DNA from: Isoetes taiwanensis
Taxonomy: Eukaryota; Streptophyta; Lycopodiopsida; Isoetales; Isoetaceae
DNA: 64,000 bases
Direction of reading: 5' to 3'
Assembly (NCBI GenBank): GCA_021234155.1
Contig: JAJEKV010000036.1
Coordinates: 13,653,426 to 13,717,425 of the forward strand
In this document: piece by piece, positions 14,009 through 33,236 of the stretch
How positions within the stretch are numbered: the stretch's first letter is position 1
How the letters are laid out: each line of letters opens with the position of its first letter
Notes under the pieces: generated by a model
The model's database searches: none
What the model was told of the DNA's origin: nothing
Seen by the model: the letters and a program-made list of their open reading frames with translations, nothing else
Position numbers and translations under genes: made by a program

Positions 14009-14118
14009 ATATCTCACATCCATAAAGAACTACACTCTGTACCAATGAATGAAAAAGCTTTATCTTAAGATTCCACAACCAAAGGTGAGATCTCCTACGC
14101 ATGCTCTATAGTGCATAC
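14009..14118 (-). mobile_element. LINE RT fragment, 5' end on a simple-repeat tail
   Basis: Nucleotide-level match to part of the LINE at 16990-17090 (connection domain downstream of YADD). Its 5' end on the minus strand lies directly on the GA/GGGA tail of the next LINE. Confidence 0.6.
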
Positions 14119-14620
14119 AGAGAGAGAAGAAGAAGAAGAAGAGAAAGGGAGGGAGGGAGGGAAATGAAATGAAATGTTGTATTAATATGGTTGTGAGACC
14201 ATCAGGTCTAGAAGACGTTCAAAATATACATTCAAAATCGTATGCAATATTATCTAATGTGTTCTTATATAGAACATCATTAGAGTCATCTCTCTCATTC
14301 TCATCCAAATATATTAGTAGAGAATCAAGATTTTTAACAGCACTTTCTCTTAATTGCATAGCTTCAATCAAATAGTTCCCAATCTTCTTACCTGGTAAGA
14401 CAAAAAACTGCATTAACGATGTTATGTTGATCCCAAATCTAGTCCTCAAAGAGTGATATGCTGGGCATTTCAAAATAACATGTCCTTCGTTCTCCATCTC
14501 ACCTGATCCGCACAGCTTGCAAGTCCCAAGCTCATGTGGTATATTCTGCCAACGACCCGTCTCCACTCCCAGATGGTGAGAACTAAACCTAATCCTGCAG
14601 ATGGTGTGGCGCATCTTAGT
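14119..14620 (-). mobile_element. LINE 3' fragment with GGGA/CATTT tail
   Basis: Encodes the C-terminal part of ORF2. It begins 'RHTICRIRFSSHHLGVE' and continues with a Cys-rich knuckle 'CKLCGSGEMENEGHVILKCPAY'-like pattern (C-x2-C-x10-H-x4-C), which all members of this family share. The 3' end has the family hairpin (gagaccatcaggtct) followed by ATTAATACAAC, CATTT repeats and a TCCC/TCTT tail at 14119-14161. The copy is 5'-truncated at about 14620, where the tail of the next element begins. Confidence 0.8.
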
Positions 14621-14755
14621 TGGGGGGGAGGGGGGGAGGGAGGGAGGGAGGGAGAGGGAGAGGAGAGAGAGAATGAAGTGAAATGTATTATTTCGTCTTG
14701 TCAAGTCATCAAATCTGTAAGACAGATTAACCAAAACAGAAAAGCGTATCATCTG
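14621..14755 (-). mobile_element. ultra-short LINE 3' end with tail
   Basis: About 83 bp of LINE 3' terminus (14673-14755) plus its tail of GGGA/GA repeats at 14621-14672. The copy has the 'aataatacatttcacttc' 3' end on the minus strand but almost no coding sequence. It is flanked on both sides by elements of the same orientation. Confidence 0.65.
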
Positions 14756-16140
14756 GGAAGGGAGGGAGGGAGGGAGGGAGGGAGGGAGCGAGAGATGAAA
14801 TGAAATGAAATGAAATTGTATTATTACATACCGCTAGGTCTATATAAGACGTTCATAACCAGTACATTGTCATGCGTAAAAAGATCATCTAATGCATCAT
14901 CAGTAAACAATGCATTAACCCCTCCCATCTCTTCCTCATCCACTTCAATTACATCCATTATTTTTAGACGCTTCTCTCTGTAGTCCAAGATGTCAAGTAT
15001 ATATGCTCCAATCTGAACACCTGGAAGTTCAAAGAAATCAACAAGCGTACAAGCATGCATACCATGTTTAACGCAAAAGTCAACGTATGCTGGACAATGA
15101 AGAAGCACGTGTGCCTCATCCTCAAGTGTTCCAATATCACACAGCTTGCAAGATCTAAGCTCATGTGGGATATTGCTCCACCTGCCTAGTTCAACCCCTA
15201 GCCTATGTGAACTCAGTCTCATTCTGCATATAGCTTGTCTATATCTAACTGAGATATTCTTCTGGAGGTGCCTGGCCCCTTTTAGCATAGGGTTGATATG
15301 ATTTCCATAGAACTCCTTCTTAACTGCACCTTCCCTCCAACACACGCATGTGACACTTCTCCTAACCCATCCCTGTATGTCATCCTTTATGCATCCCCAG
15401 ATCATCCATGCACATCCCGCACCTGGCCAACCAAAGTTTTGTGTCTACAAACCACCCCTTTGCTTGTGTCTCCACCAAAGCCAGTCGCGGAAAACTATCC
15501 TCTGGCATCATACAAAGGACTTTATGGAGAGTCCTGCAAAGCGCTTCTGTTTCTAGGGAAAACATTCCACATTCCACTAGAAACATGTCATAAGGCGTTT
15601 GCATCTTAATGCCAAGCTCTGTTCGAAAAAATCTTTTCTGTATTTTCTCAATTTTCTTCCATCTATCTAATGCCAAACCTGGCCCCCAAACCTCGCAGCC
15701 ATACAGCACAACTGACTGCACCAAAGCAATATACAAATCTTTATTCATACCAAAATTCCATATATCTGCTCTCTTACACCTGCGCTACATGGCGTAAAGG
15801 GCTTTAAGCCCACCATCTGCTTTTTGCTCAGCTGCCAAGTTCCAGTTTGGGCTTTTGTCTACAATTAAACCAAGATATTTATCGTTTTTCACCAATTCAA
15901 GATGTTCTCCCTTGTACTGCAATTTGACATGGTCTACCTTATTAGCCCCAAACACCACTATCTTGGTCTTAGCCATATTTACCCTCATGCTTTTCGCATC
16001 ACAAAAGTGACCTAAAGCATCTAAATGTCTCTGTAAACCCGCCACACTCCTGGACAGCAACACAACATCATCAGCATATAATAATAGCAAAAGAACATAC
16101 CCTTTCAGAGTTGTTCCATCTCCACCATTTTGCGAAGGCC
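14756..16140 (-). mobile_element. LINE 3' half: RT to C-terminal Cys-rich domain
   Basis: A 5'-truncated LINE copy. The minus strand encodes, in broken frames, the RT palm 'LLLLLYADDVVLLSRSV' (complement of about 16050-16100), then 'VNMAKTKIVVFGANK' and 'KYLGLIVDKSPNWN' (15785-16174). Next come 'SVVLYGCEVWGPGLALDRW' (15380-15748) and the C-terminal domain with 'CKLCDIGTLEDEAHVLLHCPAY' spacing (14824-15405). The 3' hairpin is near 14840, with a tail of ATTTC units and TCCC repeats at 14756-14816. At least three frame breaks make it a pseudogene. Confidence 0.85.
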
Positions 16141-32046: not shown

Positions 32047-32857
32047 CTATGCATCGTCCTGGCTTTCCCCCACGACCTTGCCACCTCCAAAATGTTTTTT
32101 TTCCCGCTTGCTTTGCCTCCTTAAAGATTTGCAATTGTTCTTTGTATTCCTGGAGCTGTTTTTTAGTAAGATCATCACTGATCCAAATTTTCTTTTCCTT
32201 GAGCATGGTTTTCGTCTTCAATATATTGATCTTGTCTTTCCTCGATCTCGACTTAACAATGAAGTGTCTGTCGCTGTCGTTCTGCTTCCGAATCCGGAAT
32301 GCATCCACAATATATGTATCCATCAGCTGAAGCTCATTATCACAGAAAGATTGAACAATTTCTTTAGTTTTTTTCCTTGTCTGCTCCGGTATACCAATCA
32401 GGCGAATGTTCAATGCTTTGTCCTTCTTTTCTTGTTCTTCCATAAAGAATGCAAGCTGATTTTGAATGTCAGAGACCTCTTTGCTTACAGGTTCTGTTCC
32501 TGCATCTTTATCTTCACTATCACTACCATTGTCACTGTTCATAAATTCTTGCTTGAAATCTCAAACTCTAATTTAAAACCTTGCTTGAATTGCTCAAGTT
32601 CAGCCATCATTTTGCCTTGACATTTCTCTAACTCTGTTTGTACATGAGCAAGCATAAAATTTTTAAGATCATTAACCAGATTTTGGACAAAGCTCTCCAT
32701 TGATAACTTCATAGACATAGTAGAAGCCTTCATCACTGTCATCATCTGTGAAACTGCCTCCATTAAATCCTCCTTTTTTTAGGACTCCAGATCCAAATTT
32801 CTTGCATGCACTCGCCTCGCATGTTGCAGACTCCATCCTAATGAGACGTGGTCCCAT
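32030..32857 (-). pseudogene. LINE ORF1 (coiled coil and RRM-like), frame-broken
   Basis: Two frames join near 32540-32670. The upstream one gives 'STMSMKLSMESFVQNLVNDL' and 'LEKCQGKMMAELEQFKQGF'; the downstream one gives 'KALNIRLIGIPEQTRKK', 'VDAFRIRKQNDSDRHFIVKSR' and 'KKIWISDDLTKKQLQEYKEQ'. Domain order and motifs match the intact ORF1 at 28428-29399 but the sequence is clearly diverged, so the two are different subfamilies. A homopolymer-G slip near 32070 shifts the last residues. The ancestral stop seems to be the TAG at 32049-32047, in the context GATGCATAG also found in the other copy. Confidence 0.75.
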
Positions 32858-33058
32858 TGCCTACCGACTCACCAGCAGCCACATCCGCTACAACTGGCCT
32901 CCAGACTCTATTTTTTTACTTGCTTTTCATTTTTGCGCCATTAGTTGTTCCAAAAAATGGCAATTACAGGCTTTCCAACTGGTCCAAAAGTTCCAAAAGC
33001 TCGGAACAAGCTTTTCAATGCCGAAGTTCCACAGTAGAAACCCTAGCTTCCAACATAC

Positions 33059-33236
33059 AGAGAGAGAGAGAGAGAGAGAGAGAGAGAGAGAGAGAGAGAG
33101 AGAGAGAGAGAGAGAGAGAGAGAGAGAGAGAGAGAGAGAGAGAGAGAGAGAGAGAGAGAGAGAGAGAGAGAGAGAGAGAGAGAGAGAGAGAGAGAGAGAG
33201 AGAGAGAGAGAGAGAGAGAGAGAGAGAGAGAGAGAG
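33059..33236. repeat. (GA)89 microsatellite
   Basis: Uninterrupted GA repeat on which the second LINE's 5' end lies. No LINE or SINE 3' hairpin is seen to its right (33237 on), so this tract may be the original genomic landing site. Confidence 0.95.

Follow-up and report, generated by a model that had tools for sequence, protein, structure and literature searches.

TC-tailed LINEs and a tRNA-like SINE that probably insert preferentially into TC/GA microsatellites of Isoetes taiwanensis

On the minus strand of a 64-kb stretch of the Isoetes taiwanensis genome (13,653,426-13,717,425 of contig JAJEKV010000036.1, hereafter the window), long interspersed nuclear elements (LINEs) and a short interspersed nuclear element (SINE) stand head to tail on simple repeats of the TC type, which raises the question of how different retroelements came to start at such tracts, and always in one direction. 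Our answer, drawn from sequence comparison, is that several TC-tailed LINE families, together with a tRNA-like SINE which appears to use the LINE machinery, very probably insert preferentially into TC/GA microsatellites by target priming and thereby build stacks. The elements adjoin the tracts and share one orientation, the same short tract has been used by different elements, and the tracts beside insertions are longer than those at empty sites. TC targeting is a strong preference, not an absolute rule, and its target is TC tracts in general: retroelement tails make up only part of it, and the other owners of occupied tracts include an element with terminal inverted repeats (TIRs; the TIR element), a satellite and two other repeats.

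Stacks and junctions in the window

Two stacks are present (Table 1). The first, followed along the minus strand from 33430 to 24118, reads repeat Y-(TC)89-LINE B-(TC)116-LINE A-(TC)7-truncated SINE-(TC)24-SINE-(TC)8(TCCC)n(TC)9-LINE C 5' part, while the second runs from LINE D down to 14011 and has TCCC-rich tracts. Only six pure GA/TC tracts of at least 14 nt occur in the 64 kb, all in the first stack and at five junctions (two of them are parts of the compound tract 24695-24767), and all six read TC on the element strand. At a threshold of 12 nt, six tracts lie between 13 and 34 kb of the window and none in its other 43 kb; 50 kb of random genome, taken as background, holds one, and 31 kb of flanks of SINEs lying off TC hold none.

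A sequence-only reading of the window had listed nine minus-strand pieces whose starts lie on tracts or tails of the TC type, and each of the nine junctions could be read as such. In the first stack, LINE B starts on (TC)89 (junction 33058), LINE A on (TC)116 (29491), the truncated SINE on the (TC)7 that is LINE A's tail (25051), the SINE on the (TC)24 tail of the truncated SINE (24940) and LINE C on the compound tract, which is the tail of the SINE (24694); this last LINE is cut off at about 24117. The junction at 29746 is a weaker case, in which a repeat of some 20 nt of a LINE 3' end stands on the short tail of LINE B. In the second stack, LINE pieces begin at 14118, 14620 and 14755 after imperfect (TCCC)n/(TC)n repeats that follow the 3' end of another LINE; that at 14118 is an internal piece of a LINE, 107 bp long, and lacks a 3' end. 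The same reading had taken the tracts to be mostly tails of the adjacent elements, which holds at several of these junctions; the TIR element, the satellite and the dispersed repeats X and Y also stand upstream of occupied tracts.

Ultra-short repeats (about 20 nt) of an element's 3' end lie inside TC tails both in the window (29724-29746) and after a SINE at locus L063, and are perhaps extreme 5' truncations. At 16130-16140, one LINE stops inside its own 3' hairpin and the next starts with no TC in between, a counterexample to the stacking rule. The segments 1409-8627, 13080-14015 and 18025-24117 are segmental duplications, 94-98% alike for the most part and with insertions interrupting them, and both LINE stacks sit at edges of such duplicated blocks.

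Table 1 Features of the two stacks, in minus-strand order (window coordinates).
Feature	Position	Strand	Basis
Repeat Y, dispersed and not a LINE; upstream owner of the stack's first TC tract	33237..33430	-	By-eye likeness to L016, L023
(TC)89 tract	33059..33236	-	
LINE B, decayed; 5' end on (TC)89, 3' tail TTTCATTTCATCTC; ORF1 relic 32030-32560	29747..33058	-	
Ultra-short repeat of LINE 3' end on LINE B's tail	29724..29746	-	Repeats LINE B 3' end sequence
(TC)116 tract	29492..29723	-	
LINE A, both ends present, ORF2 in pieces	25067..29490	-	RVT_1, Exo_endo_phos_2, ORFs, genome copies
(TC)7, LINE A's tail	25053..25066	-	
5'-truncated SINE, 3' part only	24989..25052	-	Match of 24720-24832 with 24941-25055
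(TC)24 tract	24941..24988	-	
SINE of about 170 bp, 3' end GTAAAATACA ahead of TC tail	24768..24940	-	At least 40 matches in the genome (of 307 candidates, 40 scored)
(TC)8(TCCC)n(TC)9 tract	24695..24767	-	
LINE C 5' part; 5' end TGTTGGACGCTAGGGTTT; ORF1 start read by eye; cut at about 24117	24118..24694	-	5' motif at 43 genome places
LINE D 3' part; 5' neighbour another LINE, no TC tract between	14795..16137	-	
(TCCC)n tail of LINE D	14756..14794	-	
Very short 5'-truncated LINE 3' end	14664..14755	-	
TC/TCCC tract	14620..14663	-	
5'-truncated LINE, last ~450 bp	14166..14619	-	
TC/TCCC/TTC tail tract	14118..14165	-	
Internal LINE fragment without 3' end	14011..14117	-	Matches 16987-17093

Copies elsewhere in the genome

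Scoring of copies elsewhere against an expectation had been set as a test beforehand, and we carried it out in the window's own assembly (1,658,258,908 bp, 1,110 contigs), where LINE copies are spread over many contigs. The 15-mer marking the 5' end of LINE C occurs at 43 places (its reversed control at 3), and at 24 of these (47 overlapping rows) TCTCTC lies no more than 13 nt upstream, tract length not being part of the test; from a background chance of 0.0037, 0.16 such places would be expected, which gives P about 3e-47 for copies that are not strictly independent. We read 140 bp upstream of the other 19 places and found, at eight of them (L081, L086, L087, L089, L090, L093, L097 and L098), a tract of TC or TC/TCCC, 24-126 nt long and 9-24 nt away, so that 32 of the 43 LINE C 5' motifs are at or near TC. 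None of the 19 flanks begins on a GA tract. Units of TGGACGC or TGTGTG are often duplicated right after the TC in LINE C 5' ends (L086, L087, L089, L090, L097, L098 and others), which looks like slippage or addition of bases at the 5' end.

The 5' end of LINE A, for which all candidates were scored, stands on (TC)40-116 at five of five places, the window copy included; the upstream owner is a LINE tail in three cases, non-LINE host sequence in one and the TIR element in one. Thirty loci were found through the LINE A 3' end, and in 14 of them the 5' limit of the copy is visible. Ten of these truncated LINE A-group copies start on TC (L002, L005, L006, L011, L012, L015, L016, L022, L023 and L028), some with up to about 30 intervening bases, partly unaligned LINE. 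Copies truncated in open reading frame 1 (ORF1), in the reverse transcriptase or in the 3' part likewise begin on TC, which speaks against the 5'-side TC being part of the element (an RNA that begins with UC repeats) or a product of insertion rather than its target. Such an origin would fit the full-length 5' ends, which mostly bear TC, but empty copies of repeat X (described below) have the tract without the element, and we find this explanation scarcely credible.

For the SINE, 16 of 30 loci (window copy included) are on TC, 13 having 10 nt or more of uninterrupted TC in the 60 nt upstream and three having 6-9 nt at a tail or TC-rich stretch. An exact 18-mer of the SINE is found at 50 places and has TCTCTC within 11 nt in at least 15 of them, a minimum, since SINEs with longer 5' ends fall outside the 11-nt gap. 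Tail length did not differ significantly between TC-flanked and other SINEs (p 0.086). A satellite array with units containing GGCATGTTTGAGCCACCTT lies near TC tracts at L054, L063, L064, L065, L070 and L033, and some of these tracts hold a SINE.

Orientation was scored at 54 TC tracts, in the window and at loci L002-L035. A detected LINE or SINE end lies upstream at 33 tracts, a start lies downstream at 26 and neither is present at eight, whereas opposite-facing detected neighbours are present at none; together with the 19 LINE C flanks above, this upholds the uniform orientation that the sequence-only reading had claimed. The 33 upstream ends are partly given by construction, since a LINE 3' end served to find most of the loci, which does not apply to the 26 of 26 downstream. 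A single orientation calls for strand-specific nicking or priming.

What follows a LINE tail was recorded at 29 loci over the next 1.2-1.5 kb, among the matches listed. A LINE or SINE in the same orientation comes within 40 nt at six (L004, L005, L008, L012, L019 and L023), and at L006 and L028 a LINE 5' region was read after the tail, with the ORF1 match beginning 604 and 366 nt on. The first match is farther off at another six (L002, L009, L011, L018, L026 and L030), that of L011 being on the opposite strand, 768 nt from the tail.

Empty and filled sites, mechanism and exceptions

Repeat X, a dispersed repeat found as the right flank of the SINE at L049, has at least 41 matches (40 of 156 candidates scored). 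We read 242 bp at eight of these (ranks 2-4 and 6-10), rank 1 being L049 itself and rank 5 (C1025) having been left out, as a SINE match lies 25 bp from it by coordinates only. Six copies are empty and have, between CTTA(C/T) and a CGTAGC motif, (TC)6 (L101 and L105), (TC)8 (L103), (TC)5 (L106) or imperfect pyrimidine tracts (L102 and L104). The other two are filled by LINEs, L100 by one with an AGACC/GGTCT hairpin and (TC)58 and L107 by one with an AGGCC/GGCCT hairpin and (TC)40; both LINEs end at the same point of repeat X, and their 5' sides lie beyond the stretch read. At L049, where both sides were read, the SINE sits at this tract between (TC)44 and (TC)21, and L042 has the left flank of L049 followed by (TC)24 and a SINE; the left side of both lacks about 14 bp (TATTTCTATCTTAC) present in the empty copies. 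At L027 a LINE tail is followed by a right flank resembling repeat X, and here the junction is less exact. All repeat X insertions follow the TC strand. By eye, repeat Y looks similar: the window copy is occupied by LINE B and the L016 copy by a different LINE, and the copy in L023 carries (TC)6CCTCCC with no LINE and is apparently empty.

These sites bear on two further explanations. By template jumping, reverse transcriptase would pass from one RNA to the UC tail of a second and lay down a stack in one event, with no TC target; this would produce the same head-to-tail anatomy and orientation between LINE and SINE units, and may account for some very short units. Nevertheless, several tract owners have no known UC-tailed RNA (the TIR element, the satellite, repeats X and Y, plain host DNA), copies of repeat X hold different insertions at a tract that is empty in others, and in the window a decayed LINE B stands beside a LINE A that is less decayed, judging from ORF lengths, all of which makes template jumping very unlikely. 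Unrelated pieces could also have been juxtaposed by recombination or assembly joins between TC tracts, as long tracts can misalign, and the pieces without a 3' end (14011-14117 and 24118-24694) may be such products. We hold joins to be highly improbable, given that 32 of 43 and five of five LINE 5' ends lie on TC or close to it, that short tracts suffice in repeat X and that orientation is uniform. Empty and filled copies of repeats X and Y together make template jumping, recombination and a TC start carried by the element hard to uphold.

Insertion into TC tracts by target priming could proceed as follows. A nick made by the endonuclease in the GA strand of a tract would expose a GA-ended 3'-OH, which would pair with the UC repeats in the tail of the RNA and from which reverse transcription would start (target-primed reverse transcription). 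Synthesis would often stop early, leaving truncated 5' ends joined to the upstream half of the tract. Each insertion would leave TC on both flanks, often longer than empty tracts, and, as every copy arrives with a TC tail of its own, later copies would land in TC left by earlier ones and give one-way head-to-tail stacks such as the five-element stack of the window.

The repeats beside several insertions number 21-116, against 5-8 in empty copies of repeat X, although the assembled length of long TC tracts is uncertain. Tracts may grow from the tail or by later slippage, some tails being short, such as the (TC)7 of LINE A. On balance we lean towards these elements making their own niche: insertion into 10-16 bp of TC could leave far longer tracts that become the next targets for LINEs, SINEs and possibly the TIR element. 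Long TC microsatellites would then be largely products of retrotransposition, and would preserve the order in which the elements of each stack inserted.

The empty paralogue of the L066 SINE locus lies near position 9471 of the window (88% alike), where the site reads GTTAGTCTTTC/AACAAG; no target duplication was seen, and the filled copy has 10 extra bases on the 5' side. The empty site also bears a pyrimidine-rich insert of about 1.7 kb, of the CTTTTC type (window 9471-11190).

A number of observations weigh against TC-targeted insertion. Eleven of the 43 LINE C 5' motifs are off TC (L082-L085, L088, L091, L092, L094-L096 and L099), L094 being counted among them because 83 nt separate its motif, which stands on (CA)n, from a (TC)28; six of the eleven look like three duplicated pairs, and a few may be chance matches. 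Four of the 14 truncated LINE copies (L009, L014, L025 and L030) and 14 of the 30 SINE loci are also off TC, three of the latter being one duplicated locus on a (TATC)n tail. In the window itself, the LINE-LINE junction near 16137 has no TC tract, and among the matches listed, 15 of the 29 LINE tails have no LINE or SINE in the next 1.2-1.5 kb. The empty paralogue of L066 has a mere TCTTTC, from which it appears that short TC-like words may suffice.

Finally, the TIR element, whose ends resemble GTTGGCCACATG...CATGTGGCCAA, lies next to TC tracts at 11 separate places (L010, L015, L024, L025, L040, L042, L048, L050, L057, L062 and L076; 13 locus ids, of which two pairs overlap), and TC tracts may therefore be open landing sites for many elements. 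They could be passively favourable to any mobile element, being nucleosome-poor or of unusual DNA structure, with no pairing of an RNA tail involved; microsatellites are indeed called landing pads in a 2025 review of plant element localisation, the accessible parts of which name no LINE case (PMC12477314). Passive landing does not account for the single orientation, with no opposite neighbour at 54 tracts, and in the window two TTTC-tailed LINE copies (52390-54910), which face in opposite directions, both lack a TC tract at the 3' end (n = 2). We therefore judge it unlikely, and retain insertion primed on the tract as the explanation for the LINEs and the SINE. In bordering TC tracts the TIR element is like SaTar-type Mu-like elements (MULEs), and it may be a second class of TC-targeting element.

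The elements, their shared 3' end and known systems

LINE A, whose frames are broken, has an ORF1 of 335 aa, an endonuclease of the apurinic/apyrimidinic (APE) type, a reverse transcriptase and, by eye, a C-terminal CxxC...HxxxxC. A reverse transcriptase domain is identified in the LINEs by RVT_1 matches above cut-off (E 2.7e-19, in LINE A, and 3.5e-23) and the APE-type endonuclease by Exo_endo_phos_2 of Pfam (E 1.9e-7, 31.4 bits against a cut-off of 27.4). In PDB, the reverse transcriptase matches R2 and human L1 ORF2 chains at similar E-values, which allows only a broad clade placement; the N-terminal endonuclease piece has no meaningful match there, and ORF1 has no family match above cut-off and nothing useful in PDB. 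On the LINE D piece, zf-RVT is below cut-off (E 0.062). The SINE carries a promoter-like box, GTTCGAACCTC, read by eye, which may be a tRNA-like box B; Rfam and ARAGORN gave no matches over the window, where ARAGORN called no tRNA. Since the LINEs carry reverse transcriptase and endonuclease genes, the SINE is tRNA-like and no TIRs were seen by eye, these elements are not MULEs.

The 3' ends of several LINE families have GACGTAAT..ATACA in common, followed by TTTC/TTTCA units and then TC repeats, and not the 3' poly(A) of flowering-plant L1 families, which ends 224 of 233 families in PMC3747384 (Table 3). Upstream of the tail lies a hairpin, which we compared in 19 LINE 3' ends picked by hand; rows nearly identical to others, or with no hairpin that could be recognised, were excluded, a selection that leans towards the fold. 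As the MAFFT alignment misplaced the second arm (loops of 4 or 5 nt), stem pairs were counted by script. The inner 5-bp stem pairs in 93 of 95 cells, against a mean of 88.5 and a maximum of 92 in 10,000 arm shuffles, which is not a strict probability because the rows are related. Pair 3 shows an A-U/G-C exchange (13 and 4 sequences), and pairs 4 and 5 each have a single U-A, that at pair 4 in a decayed copy without this fold. An outer stem also folds in 16 of the 19 ends, giving a two-helix form, and both SINE ends that were folded take a similar form with an extra small helix, directly before GTAA..ATACA(TC)n. This predicted fold suggests that the SINE and the LINEs are a pair with a shared 3' end structure. 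The (TTTC)n-tailed copies at 52390-54910 belong to another LINE family and have a similar 3' hairpin.

Animal LINEs of the APE type that target microsatellites are known. Other animal cases are the non-LTR (long terminal repeat) retrotransposons Togen, in (TG)n of fish, and some HERO families, whose lineages have a restriction-like endonuclease, in contrast to the APE-type enzyme found here (PMC4640811). Zepp and ZeppL of green algae are L1-type LINEs, as those of Isoetes may be, and likewise land on their own copies and form tandem arrays of 5'-truncated 3' ends; they cluster at putative centromeres (PMC8226300), and the Isoetes copies are on many contigs. Zepp has an (A)n tail (PMC3747384, Table 3), whereas here insertion is linked to TC tracts, other repeats are hit and a SINE takes part. 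Plant SINE/LINE pairs, in maize and tobacco, similarly have a structured 3' end in common, with a hairpin described for maize and sorghum (PMC3747384).

The sequence-only reading knew of no well-described plant case of microsatellite targeting. For LINEs and SINEs this stands: we found no report of a plant LINE or SINE aimed at microsatellites in a literature search that fell short of most subscription journals, and the accessible parts of two Isoetes genome papers (one PMC8566536) do not mention TC-targeted LINEs or SINEs. It does not stand for MULE-type DNA transposons (PMC5907723, PMC4486113). The present elements would tie the origin of long GA/TC microsatellites, usually ascribed to slippage, to retrotransposition, and suggest a mechanism of safe landing that could help LINEs to persist in a lycophyte genome. 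They also offer a rule that can be tested, namely whether the tail chooses the target.

Among plant mobile elements aimed at microsatellites are Micron of rice, MuTAnT of Medicago (PMC4486113) and SaTar of guayule and rice, the last of which forms linear, non-nested arrays as seen here (PMC5907723). SaTar and MuTAnT are Mu-like DNA transposons (PMC5907723, PMC4486113), in contrast to the elements of Isoetes, which are RNA-mediated and have tails that match the target, and which would thus add RNA-mediated elements to this group, including an APE-type LINE whose tail matches the sequence into which it inserts.

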